A DNA stretch of 64,000 nt from an uncultured Methanomicrobiales archaeon (GTDB lineage Archaea; Halobacteriota; Methanomicrobia; Methanomicrobiales; Methanospirillaceae). This document shows, piece after piece, positions 1,343 through 38,563 of this stretch. The notes under the pieces are model-generated. The model made no database searches. It had not been told where the DNA came from and saw only the letters and a program-made list of their open reading frames with translations. Within the stretch, counting starts at the first letter, position 1. The number at the start of each line of letters is the position of its first letter. A program made the position numbers and the translations under genes. The stretch spans positions 1 through 64,000 of the forward strand of contig CAILCG010000019.1 of NCBI GenBank assembly GCA_903832665.1, given 5' to 3'.

Positions 1343-1677
1343 GGTTCATTCAGTCTTCAGTTTTTTCCACACTTGGGGACTGACGCAACTGAATGAGCGT
1401 CCTCAAACCGTATCAGGAACTGGAATCCCTTTAACCTCCCCGCCCAGCGAGGCCCCGCCGAATCGGCCGGGCGACCCCCCGCAGGGGAGGGCTTGCTCAA
1501 AAGATGACGACAGAAGTCCCACATTCCCATGCATAACATCAAACAAAAGGCGGGTGGGAGGTACCCTGTCCAAACCAAGAGAGGGGGATACCAGCCCACC
1601 CTACCCCCCCTCCGGGAAAAGACAGGGTACCCCCTCACTTGCGCAGGACAGGGTACCACCCCCCCTTTGAATGAACC
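1343..1677. repeat. Non-coding GC-rich island bounded by 10-bp inverted repeats
   Basis: Perfect inverted repeats GGTTCATTCA (1343-1352) and TGAATGAACC (1668-1677) bound 335 bp that are far richer in G and C than the flanks and hold no convincing gene. Inside, a GGTACCCTGTCC motif (~1560-1571) recurs inverted twice as GACAGGGTACC (~1621 and ~1648). The layout resembles a miniature mobile element or an extragenic palindromic repeat. Open frames exist on both strands but are proline/arginine-rich and have no ribosome-binding site. Confidence 0.5.
1429..1478 (+). repeat. Dispersed 50-bp GC-rich repeat, copy A
   Basis: About 80% identical by eye to the reverse complement of 36404-36454. Shared blocks are CTTT, AACCTCCC, GCCCAGCGA and GCGACCCC at the same spacing, with roughly nine mismatches and one gap. 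The second copy lies inside the tRNA-Thr element, next to its putative origin. Confidence 0.65.
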
Positions 1678-34281: not shown

Positions 34282-34324
34282 TCAGTTCCTTGTGGATTAA
34301 TGAATATCAAAAAAAATGTTAAAA

Positions 34325-34342
34325 AGCCTCAGCTGTGGTTGA
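34325..34342. repeat. Putative att site: diverged copy of the tRNA-Thr 3' end
   Basis: AGCCTCAGC-T-GTG-G-TTGA (34325-34342) matches the plus-strand tRNA-Thr 3' end AGCCTCAGC-C-GTG-A-TTTGA (38491-38509) at 17 of 19 positions with one gap. It marks the far end of the integrated element. Confidence 0.6.
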
Positions 34343-34491
34343 CTGTAATTGTTCAAATCCTACGACAATAAACGTTTCTATCAAATAATGATTTCTGGGC
34401 TCTGCTGAAATAATTACCCCTTTTTAATTTTGGATTTTTATAGGGGAAATGTTTATCTATTTTTATCTATCTATATATATCAGTGAGGACA

Positions 34492-35268
34492 ATGGCGAAA
34501 TTTTGTAATGGTTCAGGGGTGTCAGCGGTACTGACTGAAGTTATCACAAATGCAGAAAAGGAATTGTGTATTATTTCCCCATATCTCAAAATTCCAATGC
34601 AAACCAAGAATTATCTAAAGGCAATCGACGATAAAAAATTTCAATTCACTATTATTTATCGAACGAATTCATCGTTGAATGATGAGGATCTCCATTTTTT
34701 TAAGAACTTAAACTATTTAGATTTGAGATGTTGTGACAACCTACACACAAAATGCTACATAAATGAAAAAGAGGGTCTAATTACGACAATGAATTTACAT
34801 GAGCACTCACAAGTCTTTAACTGGGAAATGGGGATACGATTCTCTAAACAAAATGATTCAGAGATATTTTCCGACGTAGTTAAGGAATTAAATTTTATAA
34901 TAAATGCAAGTAAATTGCAACCCATAAAACAAAAAAACCAAGAAAAGAAACAAAATAATTGGTCCAATACATCTCTCAAATCCACTCAAAAAACTGGGTA
35001 TAAGCCTAAAGAAGCCCCGAATGAAGGATTATTCACCAAACTTATAGATTTAGTAATTAGAAAAGAGGCATATTGTATTCGTTGTGGACAACCGATGGAC
35101 AAATTTGATTTACAAAAACCACTTTGCGAGATATGTTATCCTAAATGGGCAAAATATAAGAAAGTAGATTATCCAGAGAATAATTGCCATGCTTGTGGTC
35201 AAACAAAATCCAATATTACTTACGGAAAACCGATTTGCCTTAGTTGTTATAACAAATCTTATAAATAG
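34492..35268 (+). CDS. PLD-like domain protein with C-terminal zinc ribbons
   Basis: 258 aa. The N-terminal ~150 residues form a phospholipase-D-superfamily half: ELCIISPYLK (24-33), the H-x-K pair HTKCY (His85, Lys87), TMNL with the conserved Asn (101), and WEMGIRF (Glu112). A lysine/glutamine-rich linker (~130-180) leads to two CxxC/CxxC zinc ribbons (CIRC...CEIC, CHAC...CLSC). PLD-fold proteins with one HxK are usually nucleases that dimerise; a nucleic-acid role is inferred from the zinc ribbons. ATG 34492 is preferred over GTG 34483. TATATATC lies just upstream. It is inside the tRNA-Thr element. Confidence 0.7.
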   Translation: MAKFCNGSGVSAVLTEVITNAEKELCIISPYLKIPMQTKNYLKAIDDKKFQFTIIYRTNSSLNDEDLHFFKNLNYLDLRCCDNLHTKCYINEKEGLITTMNLHEHSQVFNWEMGIRFSKQNDSEIFSDVVKELNFIINASKLQPIKQKNQEKKQNNWSNTSLKSTQKTGYKPKEAPNEGLFTKLIDLVIRKEAYCIRCGQPMDKFDLQKPLCEICYPKWAKYKKVDYPENNCHACGQTKSNITYGKPICLSCYNKSYK

Positions 35269-35306
35269 ACTCAAAATTTTCTAATGTCGGAAATCATTCT
35301 GACGTA

Positions 35307-36272
35307 TCACTCATCATTACCCCCAAGCGAACGCCACGCGCTAATATTTTTGTCGTAATTAGGAGACCGATTAAGAATCTTTTCCTCATTCGAGAATTTT
35401 AAGAGAGTTTCAAGGGGTACAAATTTATAATTTTTTGGGATTTTCTTATTCATGATTGCGGAAAGAGAACGGGACGGTTGAAAGGCACGAACACGCCGAT
35501 TGAGACCCCCAAACAACTTAGATTTCCCTGATAACCATAGACAAGTATTAAATATCACATCATATTTCGTCCATTCGGAGAGCGCGCCAATTGATGTTTT
35601 CCCCAGGTATGCCAGAGGATAGGCAATAAAGGATTTTATGTCACGAAAGTCCTTCGGTTCTTTAATCTCAATTTTTATTCCGTGATCACGAGAACCCATT
35701 TTTTGGGTATTATTCCAATGATTTTCAATAATTTCTAACGTCTTTTCTGGCGGCAATTGATTGAGGAAATAATTGTCATGAGCGTGAACATAGCCGCTTG
35801 TTGGATGTCCTTCGAGAATTGAGAGGTAATCGACAGTTTTCAGATATTTTTTTATCATCTGTTTTCCTCGTCGATGCGCTTCATGGAATTTACCGAAATA
35901 CGCCAGGTGTCGCAGTCCGTTTTTTGTTGGGAGTTGTGGAGAAGCGTGAGAACCCGTTAAGGTAATCATCATTGTAAATTTCGGCATTTTCGAAGTATGT
36001 GCGAGGTAGTAATATTGTAAATTGTAGAGTTTGTAGAGAATACGACGGTCATAGAGAGGGGTCCATCGATGAATGTAATCAATATCCTCATCAACGGCAA
36101 CAGGGTCTAACAGGTCTCCATCTTGAGTATGTTCATCGTATTTTATTCCCCGAATTTTGATTTTCATGGCATTTGTCGTATTCAAGTAATTGTCGAATTG
36201 CAAAACGCGCTTGAGCATATATTTCAGGAAATTATCTTCCCGTATTTGTTCAATCAAAACTGGAGGTATCAT
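35307..36272 (-). CDS. rep: HUH rolling-circle replication initiator (Rep)
   Basis: 321 aa with the three ordered Rep motifs. Motif 1 is FTMMITLTGSHASP (~99-112). Motif 2 is the HUH metal site GYVHAHDNYFL, with His163 and His165 and Ala between. Motif 3 is the catalytic tyrosine segment AYPLAYLGK, Tyr222 with Lys225. Family knowledge: such proteins nick a hairpin origin and attach covalently to the 5' end to start rolling-circle replication of plasmids and viruses. No helicase domain is present. The gene begins ~60 bp from twin hairpins (36332-36372), the likely origin. Identification is from motifs, not a database search. Confidence 0.75.
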   Translation of the reverse strand: MIPPVLIEQIREDNFLKYMLKRVLQFDNYLNTTNAMKIKIRGIKYDEHTQDGDLLDPVAVDEDIDYIHRWTPLYDRRILYKLYNLQYYYLAHTSKMPKFTMMITLTGSHASPQLPTKNGLRHLAYFGKFHEAHRRGKQMIKKYLKTVDYLSILEGHPTSGYVHAHDNYFLNQLPPEKTLEIIENHWNNTQKMGSRDHGIKIEIKEPKDFRDIKSFIAYPLAYLGKTSIGALSEWTKYDVIFNTCLWLSGKSKLFGGLNRRVRAFQPSRSLSAIMNKKIPKNYKFVPLETLLKFSNEEKILNRSPNYDKNISAWRSLGGNDE

Positions 36273-36331
36273 GGGACACCTTCGTTTTTCGGTTCAGGGA
36301 GACCGGTACTAATTAGTCTATAGTTGCCAAG

Positions 36332-36372
36332 GGGGGCGCATCCGCGCCCCCTACACGGCGCTCCACGCCGTG
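36332..36372. other. Twin hairpins beside rep: putative rolling-circle origin
   Basis: Two perfect stem-loops lie back to back. GGGGGCGC (36332-36339) pairs with GCGCCCCC (36344-36351) around a 4-nt loop, and CACGGCG (36354-36360) pairs with CGCCGTG (36366-36372) around CTCCA. They stand 60 bp upstream of the Rep start, where double-strand origins of rolling-circle replicons often lie. A rho-independent-like structure is unlikely because no T-run follows. Confidence 0.55.
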
Positions 36373-36403
36373 AGATAAAGTAGGGAAGGAACCCCCCCCC
36401 AAA

Positions 36404-36454
36404 GGGGTCGCTCAGACGCCTCGTCGGGTCTTCGCTGGGCAGGGAGGTTGAAAG
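36404..36454 (-). repeat. Dispersed 50-bp GC-rich repeat, copy B
   Basis: The reverse complement is ~80% identical to 1429-1478. It sits between the hairpins and the 56-aa gene, next to a C9 run (36392-36400). Presence in both the element and a distant extragenic island suggests a shared origin or a repeat family. Confidence 0.65.
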
Positions 36455-36498
36455 CCTCTGCTCCGCTCACTACAGCAGTCTTTTGAGAAGTCACCGGA

Positions 36499-36669
36499 TC
36501 ACCTGCTCATCAGATTGTCCTTTTCAATCCGGACTTTTCCGACCCGTTCCAGTGCCCGGGCCATGAGTTGTTCTATCGGGTGCAGAGCTTTGAAGATATC
36601 GTGAGAAATGACGAGGATTTCTTCACTGATTCCCGATTGTGAAGAGCGCATCTGAAGTGTTTGTTGCAT
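36499..36669 (-). CDS. Small element-encoded protein, 56 aa
   Basis: ATG at 36669 follows GGGAGGTCAGT, an excellent Shine-Dalgarno sequence. The translation is helical and amphipathic: MQQTLQMRSSQSG, ISEEILVISHDIFKALHPI, EQLMARALERVGKVRI, EKDNLMSR, then TGA. There are no cysteines or membrane segments. The strong translation signal and position beside the origin and the ribbon-helix-helix gene suggest a real gene, perhaps a copy-control or partition-type factor; that function is a guess. Confidence 0.6.
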   Translation of the reverse strand: MQQTLQMRSSQSGISEEILVISHDIFKALHPIEQLMARALERVGKVRIEKDNLMSR

Positions 36670-36765
36670 ACTGACCTCCCTGCGTGGTAACGAACCGGCA
36701 GAAGAGGGATACCATCGCTAGCCCGTGTTCACTGTTCTTTTCACTCATCTGAATGTAAGTAGTCT

Positions 36766-37116
36766 TCATTTTTTCTTTACCTTCTTTGATTTTTTAGGTT
36801 CATGGTAGGTAAGTTTGACCGCGCTAGCCTCATCTTCATACTGACGTTTCACCCGGAGCCAGTAATCGGCATAGGCCTGTTTCGCTCCTAACCGGATGTT
36901 GTAGTGAAGGATCGTTTCCTTGTCACCTGAATATATTACATTTGGATTATACTGTGCTTCGACTGAACTTACCAGGAACGGGGCAAATTCACTCAGCATA
37001 TCCCGAATAACGGCATCGTAAGAACATCCCCGCTCCGCTTTGAGATGCCCAAGGATCTCAAAGGTCTCTGGGGAGACCCGAACATTCGGATAGTTCTTCA
37101 CGGTCTTTTTTACCAT
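36766..37116 (-). CDS. Basic ribbon-helix-helix-like DNA-binding protein
   Basis: 116 aa. The N-terminal NVRVSPETFEILGHLKAER then CSYDAVIRDMLSEF fits a CopG/Arc ribbon-helix-helix: a strand followed by two helices. The middle (~60-90) is helical and aromatic (ILHYNIRLGAKQAYADYWLRVKRQYED), and the C-terminus is highly basic (PKKSKKVKKK). In small plasmids and viruses such proteins repress rep or integrase promoters. It lies between the 56-aa gene and the integrase, all on the minus strand. Confidence 0.7.
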   Translation of the reverse strand: MVKKTVKNYPNVRVSPETFEILGHLKAERGCSYDAVIRDMLSEFAPFLVSSVEAQYNPNVIYSGDKETILHYNIRLGAKQAYADYWLRVKRQYEDEASAVKLTYHEPKKSKKVKKK

Positions 37117-37226
37117 GAGATCAAATTTACGTGTTGAATATTTATGTGTTTTTGTGTTTTTTATTGTGTTTTATTCAAGTATTCCCCGTCGTAAAATAGT
37201 GCAGAAAAAAACGTAAAAAAACACAA

Positions 37227-38213
37227 TTATTTCTTTAATTCTTGCAGCAATTCTAGAAACGCCGCACCTGCTTTTGGATTGTCGGCAAGAAGACCTCGAA
37301 CCTGTTCCTCGAAATTGCTCACTTGTTTTAGCGCTTCTCCAGTCAGAGGTTTGCCGCAGACGTGACAGAAATTGCTTTGCGGTCCGTTCATTGCAAAACA
37401 GGATTTACATTGCCGGGGAAGCATCTTCTTGTCTTCTTTGATCTCCTTTTTCTCTATTCCCATTTTCTCTTTAAATTCGGCGTCTATATCCTTGTCACTC
37501 AGTACGACATAGGTTTTGAACATATTTGTTCCGATATTGCCCCACATCGCCTGTTTGATGACACTTTCTTGATAGTTCTGTTTTATTAGACTGGTGATTC
37601 TGCTTTTACGGAACAGGTGGGGGGTAACGCGCTTATCCAATCCTGCTTTTTTTGCGGTCCTACTGATGATCTGCGACATAGCTCGATATTCCATAGGCTC
37701 CCCATCCGCGGATGTAAAAACATAATTGTCAGTGTCCGGAGTGCCAGGGTAATTGTTGCGCCATCCCGCGAGATACTCAATTGATGCACCTAGCAGAGCG
37801 TGACGGACCTTCCGTGTTTTTGTATCCGAGAGTGTCAGGCCGACGGTGCTGTCATCGTTGAAAATGACATCTTTCCATTTGATGCGTGCAAGTTCACCGA
37901 TACGACAGCCTGATTCGTACAGGACGAAGATTAGTGCCTTATCCCTAAATGTTCGTGCCTGCGTAACCATCGCTAAAATATCGTCCTCTTGTAAAATTCC
38001 GTCGGGTGTGGTAGTACAGGAATCGACAGAAGGGATCTTGATTTTATCGACTTTTTCTTTTGATAATGTTGAATGACCTTCGGTGATCATCCACTGTAAA
38101 AACCATTTGAGGCCTTTAACATAGTCATGCTTTGTATTATCTTTGAATGGTGTTCCCCTGGTGCTCTTTGCAGTATTCAGGTCATTAAGAGCCTGATGTA
38201 TCTGGGTTATCAT
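37227..38213 (-). CDS. int: Tyrosine recombinase/integrase with C-terminal zinc ribbon
   Basis: 328 aa from ATG 38213. The SAM-like core-binding part is DYVKGLKWFLQWMITEG. The catalytic domain follows: ESGCRIGELARIKWKDV (Arg I), TPHLFRKSRITSLI (H-x-x-R box; ~199-212), MWGNIGTNMFKTYV with the nucleophile Tyr (~234-237). A lysine-rich linker leads to a zinc ribbon CKSCFAMNGPQSNFCHVCG (~273-291), seen in several archaeal integrases. The gene abuts tRNA-Thr, the expected target. In-frame remains of ~70 more N-terminal residues lie upstream behind stop codons, so the present product is shortened. Confidence 0.85.
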   Translation of the reverse strand: MITQIHQALNDLNTAKSTRGTPFKDNTKHDYVKGLKWFLQWMITEGHSTLSKEKVDKIKIPSVDSCTTTPDGILQEDDILAMVTQARTFRDKALIFVLYESGCRIGELARIKWKDVIFNDDSTVGLTLSDTKTRKVRHALLGASIEYLAGWRNNYPGTPDTDNYVFTSADGEPMEYRAMSQIISRTAKKAGLDKRVTPHLFRKSRITSLIKQNYQESVIKQAMWGNIGTNMFKTYVVLSDKDIDAEFKEKMGIEKKEIKEDKKMLPRQCKSCFAMNGPQSNFCHVCGKPLTGEALKQVSNFEEQVRGLLADNPKAGAAFLELLQELKK

Positions 38214-38429
38214 AACTTCCCGATATGGCGATTGAATGAACCGGCGTCAGTTTACCAATTCAAAGATACTTTTAAGGATCCGCAGATTTGAGACATGCCG
38301 TGTGGCCTGATACTCTGATGCATAATCGCGGATCAGGACTGCGTCATCTGGAGTGATCTGTCCTGAAGCAAGTGCATTATTTATCGAGTTATCGCCGTAT
38401 TTCAGATTGTCCTAACTATGAAAGCCCAT
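38214..38429 (-). pseudogene. Cut-off N-terminal part of the integrase
   Basis: The integrase frame continues upstream to ATG 38429. It reads MGFHS, TAG, then DNLKYGDNSINNALASGQ, ITPDDAVLIRDYASEY, QATRHVSNLRILKSIFELVN, TGA, RRFIQSPYREV, and joins the present start. This is a coherent SAM-like domain of an integrase. The TGA probably replaced TGG (Trp). Confidence 0.7.
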
Positions 38430-38490
38430 GAATTAGGATTGTAAAATAGTGTTCAAATACCTTTTGATGTGAATTGAACAAAAAGTAACA

Positions 38491-38563
38491 AGCCTCAGCC
38501 GTGATTTGAACACGGGACCTGCTGATTACAAGTCAGCCGCTCTGCCAACTAAGCCACTGAGGC
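38491..38563 (-). tRNA. tRNA-Thr (anticodon UGU)
   Basis: Cloverleaf on the minus strand: acceptor GCCTCAG/CTGAGGC, D-arm GCTTAGTTGGCAGAGC, anticodon arm GCTGA-CTTGTAA-TCAGC (anticodon TGT), T-arm CCGTG-TTCAAAT-CACGG, discriminator U, no encoded CCA. No intron. It is the integration target of the neighbouring element. Confidence 0.93.

Follow-up and report, generated by a model that had tools for sequence, protein, structure and literature searches.

A probable integrated rolling-circle plasmid at a tRNA-Thr gene of a Methanoregula species and a structured unit, putatively a single-strand origin, that recurs across the genus

Attachment sites and integrase

The window (the whole stretch of DNA analyzed here, 64,000 nucleotides) comes from a species of Methanoregula, a methane-producing archaeon, and an integrated element spans positions 34324–38506 of it. 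From left to right the element carries a distal attachment site, a gene for a PLD-fold nuclease-like protein, rep, a structured unit, a 56-aa gene, a ribbon-helix-helix-like gene and an integrase gene that abuts the target gene, tRNA-Thr(UGU) (38491–38563, minus strand), the sole tRNA that ARAGORN calls in the window. The 3′ end of this tRNA gene (38490–38506) is the proximal attachment (att) site. The distal site at 34324–34340 (plus strand) is a displaced tRNA-Thr end that has the core AAGCCTCAGC in common with the tRNA and is identical to it at 15 of 17 positions; 4,166 bp lie between the two att copies. The tRNA-Thr 3′-end sequence AAGCCTCAGCCGTGATT has just that one further copy in the 64 kb at up to three mismatches, and a 17-mer with this tolerance is expected 0.19 times per window by chance and was found at the two att positions only.

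The two differences between the distal core and the tRNA end count against integration, and here a related element in a second genus of the family (L200 in genome G170) is informative. The element-side arm of the distal site (34341–34365, no strand assigned), which holds TTTGAACAA and is a candidate integrase arm site, is also present beside the distal att of L200, where the sequence reads TTTGAACAA..GGTCAACCACGGCTGGGGCTT against TTTGAACAA..AGTCAACCACAGCTGAGGCTT in the window, and in both cases the att core (GGGG or GAGG) matches the tRNA-Thr variant of its own host. The arm thus belongs to the element, and since the arm is shared and the cores are host-specific, an imperfect left repeat is the expected look of an att site. 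Judged from these sequences, the weak repeat on the left is a genuine att site. GTTCAA/TTTGAAC motifs occur on the integrase side as well, in the window, in L200 and in a sister element from another species (L062 in G042).

The tyrosine integrase gene, whose product has a C-terminal zinc ribbon, occupies 37227–38429 (minus strand) and, by comparison with relatives, is a pseudogene. Its domain (37227–38213, minus strand) matches Pfam Phage_integrase at 7.8e-22, the true start lies at 38429, and codons 6 and 61 (38412–38414 and 38247–38249) are in-frame stops, where the 403-aa integrases of L062 and L200 are open. With these two stops the window copy does not qualify as a functional integrase gene, and because both nonsense codons are missing from the relatives, we read the element as decaying. 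The Rep frame is open in the window and interrupted in L062.

The right neighbor of tRNA-Thr encodes Mmp10, the MCR-arginine methyltransferase, and was matched in 57 of 60 relatives; element-free relatives have polysaccharide genes near tRNA-Thr, and a similar type of gene lies to the left of 34324 in the window. Integration recurs at the tRNA-Thr/mmp10 site, a hotspot in the genus: related elements occupy it in three genomes, and G003 and G015 have other integrases there. The latter (L095 and L092, respectively) are more distant, at 35–36% identity.

An earlier note on this DNA had delimited an element at tRNA-Thr by a diverged distal copy of the tRNA end. The att pair and the sister copies bear this out, with the size now corrected to the 4,166 bp given above, and the similarity of the left repeat to a tRNA end, when checked in the further genome, is confirmed by the distal site of L200. 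The two nonsense codons agree with the note's view that the element is now decaying; its view that the element arrived once cannot be established at a site that is a hotspot. An integrase does adjoin the tRNA as described there; its gene starts at 38429 and is interrupted by the two stops.

Rep, small genes, cargo and sister elements

The rep gene (35307–36272, minus strand) is open and encodes a 321-aa rolling-circle Rep with HAH and YxxxY motifs (alignment A5). The window Rep itself has no match in Pfam or the other libraries; its homologs match REP_ORF2-G2P (5e-11) and DUF1424 (1e-6) in Pfam, and Pfam scans of the window and sister Reps gave no match to PF25227 (Rep-Arvir). An AlphaFold model of the window Rep, built from a 5-sequence alignment, was poor (pLDDT 38.7) and unfit for structure search. 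A second Rep of another subtype is encoded in the same genome (L064, G000:C1:119086–119790), near a contig end and adjoining type I restriction-modification-like genes.

Upstream of rep lies a putative double-strand-origin motif, CCTTGGCAACTATAGACTAA (36313–36332, minus strand). Six elements have its general form YCTNGGCNNNYNNNGAMTAA upstream of rep, the plasmids pML and pNVE2 have close variants, and the motif resembles the haloarchaeal double-strand origin TCTCGGCnnnCnnnG as that is cited in PMC9569500. The stricter form YCTYGGCNNNYNNNGAMTAA (YCTYGGC...) has a single exact match in the window; 27 of 100 shuffles match it at ≤1 mismatch, so that the evidence for the motif is its position and not its rarity. 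Two GC-rich sequences upstream of the motif, at 36331–36351 and 36354–36372 (both minus strand), fold as hairpins.

The conserved small protein sORF56 (56 aa; 36499–36669, minus strand) was identified by family search, with relatives in 11 of the 231 genomes of the order, and as far as these sequences go the gene is family-wide. The family has the signature VFxALxPLDQLAAxALEKVGKVxIVxD (alignment A4) and no library relative; the predicted structure is beta-alpha-alpha-beta, with pLDDT >90 in the core. The 116-aa ribbon-helix-helix-like protein (36766–37116, minus strand) corresponds to an 80-aa protein encoded at that position in L062. On the opposite strand, the 258-aa PLD-fold nuclease-like protein with C-terminal zinc ribbons (34492–35268, plus strand) matches PLDc_2 (8e-6), a zinc ribbon and phrog_9329 (2e-36), is weakly DrmC-like, and is related to proteins of small Vibrio phages; its relatives adjoin some integrases only.

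Sister elements show which of these parts are constant. The tRNA-Thr site of L062 repeats the gene order of the window, with an integrase 82% identical to the window's, then the ribbon-helix-helix gene, the 56-aa gene and rep, after which the contig ends. L200, at tRNA-Thr beside mmp10, has the integrase, the 56-aa gene, Rep and a ParE-like toxin. In L065 (G040) the integrase-sORF56-Rep module is bounded by tRNA-Ser and, 3.8 kb away, by a 16-bp sequence that repeats the tRNA-Ser 3′ end exactly, and three further copies (L229, L232 and L233) have tRNA-Arg nearby. Direct att repeats of a tRNA 3′ end thus flank integrase and rep in the window, L200 and L065. The cargo varies among the sister copies (ParE-type toxin, TPR or other), and the PLD-zinc protein is therefore swappable cargo and not the source of the element's novelty. 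On present sequences the family hallmark is a constant module of integrase, 56-aa gene and structured unit, with exchangeable Rep and cargo.

Much of the earlier note's inventory is upheld by these results: an HUH Rep with HxH and Tyr motifs, two strong hairpins upstream of rep, a 56-aa gene with a strong ribosome site (GGAGGT precedes it) and a PLD-like protein with zinc ribbons are all there, and the syntenic copies that it proposed to seek beside tRNA genes were found at tRNA-Thr (L062, L200) and tRNA-Ser (L065). The gene it called ribbon-helix-helix is present, but that assignment is weak (RHH_1, E 0.09), and its suggestion that the PLD-zinc cargo marks a new element type is not supported, given the other cargo of the sister copies.

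The structured unit upstream of rep

The interval from the 56-aa gene to rep holds a conserved structured unit of about 62 nt (36382–36443, minus strand), recognized by alignments, a covariance model and covariation, with a 5′ extension conserved to 36468; it is absent from the earlier inventory. It is made up of an outer CCCA/TGGG helix, a hairpin with tandem GA and the loop CCGACGAGGC, and a second hairpin. When the sORF56-rep intervals of three elements are aligned, about 65 nt are 94–97% identical to the consensus, and the Reps of these elements share 25–58% identity. The unit is independent of Rep type, its core being 94% identical in L062 and L065 despite their different Reps and 87% in L199, which has the unit with another Rep and lacks the origin motif. 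Among 45 copies 97% of cells pair and 8 of the 11 pairs have changed on both sides, compared with 2.5 in shuffles and 2–4 in slid controls; the outer helix is invariant and so beyond the reach of this test. We read the unit on the rep-coding strand because the conserved tandem mismatches are G-A on that strand only. A role as the nick site of Rep was considered and is disfavored, since the unit is common to different Reps and rep has another conserved motif nearer to it.

The covariance model finds the unit in 37 of 39 genomes of the genus, at 1–26 copies each, counts that are lower bounds, and it is the 3′ part that recurs in this way. Outside the genus, some further members of the family have the unit, as do three genomes from a different family, in each of which the single copy adjoins a Rep gene. 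The same model found no unit in L229, L232, L233, L075 or pML, the last of which had been tried as a carrier, and a scan of viral contigs gave no match. Dispersed copies are intergenic and lie in both orientations relative to neighboring genes. One such solo copy is in the window itself (1439–1501, plus strand; 47.9 bits, E 5.5e-11). Other intergenic solo copies lie on contigs C14, C16, C17, C21, C26 and C28 of the same genome (G000), and there are about 10 per genome in the species. When solo copies in the close relatives G017 and G020 were compared with empty sites, the flanks aligned on one side only.

Subgroups of solo units are preceded by further sequences. The hairpin AAAACGCCTCGTCGGGTTTTGCG precedes those at L183, L188, L189, L190, L191, L182 and L065:13104–13163; its loop and the unit loop are reverse complements of each other, which gives inverted pairs of about 150 bp that resemble REPINs. 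A GCCGCCGCCCC...GCGGCGG palindrome precedes the unit at L110, L113, L164, L178 and L185, and CCCCCTCTCTCCCCCAGAGGGGG precedes it at L116, L122 and L123. Several repeat families seem to be combined in these genomes.

Interpretation and comparison with known systems

Comparison of the att sites, of the gene order shared across copies, of the Rep family and of the interrupted integrase leads us to conclude that the 4.2-kb region is very probably an integrated, decaying rolling-circle plasmid. A small plasmid would have used its tyrosine recombinase to enter the chromosome at the 3′ end of tRNA-Thr(UGU) and would now be trapped there. In the free form Rep would nick the GGC...GACTAA motif at 36313–36332, and the displaced strand would fold at 36382–36443 into a compact junction at which host enzymes start the complementary strand. 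The 56-aa and ribbon-helix-helix-like proteins probably control rep or int expression, and the PLD protein would be optional cargo. That an old integrase remnant at a hotspot has merely come to lie beside an unrelated Rep-PLD island is extremely improbable: the tRNA site is indeed a hotspot and the left att is imperfect, but L062 and L200 keep the gene order at tRNA-Thr and L065 does so at a different tRNA, att repeats included, and this synteny, as read from the sequences, already contradicts a chance assembly. A provirus of a small pleolipovirus-like virus is very unlikely as well. Among annotated proteins, the sister integrase is closest to integrases from Geoglobus and Archaeoglobus pleomorphic viruses (28–29%); against this, Pfam and PHROGs scans of five ORFs recognized no spike or membrane-protein gene in the 4.2 kb, and searches of phage records and viral contigs found no relative of Rep.

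The function of the structured unit is a separate matter. Its 3′ end lies 24–64 nt upstream of the double-strand-origin motif, and its predicted fold is strand-specific and would form on the displaced strand, the rep-coding strand holding the GA pairs; single-strand origins usually lie 100–200 bp upstream of the double-strand origin (PMC9569500), and the distance here is shorter. Five unit copies are joined at their 3′ end to 5′-truncated Rep genes. At L245, L253, L251 and L248 solo units run directly into Rep tails that start at residues 232–279, and G157 and G158, compared at orthologous loci that adjoin a cysteine desulfurase-like gene, are set apart by a deletion that reaches from the 3′ edge of the unit to Rep residue ~173. 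Such fusions are expected if complementary-strand synthesis starts at the unit and stays unfinished, which would lose the Rep start and the origin and keep the Rep end. We therefore tentatively propose that the unit is a single-strand (lagging-strand) origin, a reading we consider quite possible. Many of the dispersed chromosomal units would be what such elements have left behind. The fuller proposal, that the lagging-strand start signal of unrelated rolling-circle plasmids has turned into a genus-wide repeat, with incomplete complementary-strand synthesis at the unit making and spreading truncated elements, is more doubtful; if it is true, a covariation-defined archaeal single-strand origin would also be the source of a REP-like repeat family.

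Two other readings of the unit bear on this. It could be a regulatory RNA (a leader or an antisense control of rep), with chromosomal copies that form an RNA family; tandem G-A pairs and GNA-type loops suit RNA too, a reading frame crosses the unit into rep in L065 and L200, and the copies are intergenic. We find this rather unlikely, as Rfam has no match for the unit, the dispersed copies take both orientations, and 3′-edge fusions to rep interiors better suit a DNA-processing site. Somewhat less likely still is a chromosomal REP/REPIN-like mobile repeat that was acquired by plasmids and spread by an HUH transposase. The copy numbers per genome would fit, as would the upstream hairpins with reverse-complementary loops, which recall REP pairs, but the Y1 transposase (PF01797) is absent from the element's own genome and present in only 5 of the 39 genus genomes, so that a RAYT as the mover is disfavored; moreover, the three single copies in the other family all adjoin rep, and the position of the unit is fixed in elements with different Reps.

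To our knowledge, hardly anything is known of how the second strand is started in archaeal rolling-circle plasmids, and a Rep-independent structure with covariation support is a concrete, testable candidate for such a start. It may also explain how a repeat family shared among the genomes of a wetland methanogen genus arose, and the att-defined integrative plasmid family could be developed for Methanoregula genetics.

We could not match this plasmid family to any described archaeal one. The pT26-2 family (PMC6972569) is likewise an archaeal plasmid family with integrated members, and was compared by its description as given in title and abstract. The 2,158-bp plasmid pML of Methanohalophilus mahii has a Rep 39% identical to the L065-type Rep and a similar origin motif that follows a GC-rich hairpin ahead of rep, but it is a free plasmid in which an integrase and the 56-aa gene are not annotated. 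The haloarchaeal rolling-circle plasmid pNVE2 has a distantly related Rep (25%) and a matching origin motif, whereas haloarchaeal plasmids of this kind are small, free and without an integrase module. SNJ2-like betapleolipoviruses/Rep-Arvir (PMC13107129) are likewise archaeal integrating elements that combine an integrase with a rolling-circle Rep; they differ in being viral, in their Rep family (PF25227) and in having the origin downstream of rep (PMC13107129). REPIN/RAYT systems, finally, also consist of dispersed, structured intergenic repeats tied to an HUH protein, but the element here has no Y1 transposase, and its repeat travels with an integrating plasmid, ahead of a replication Rep.
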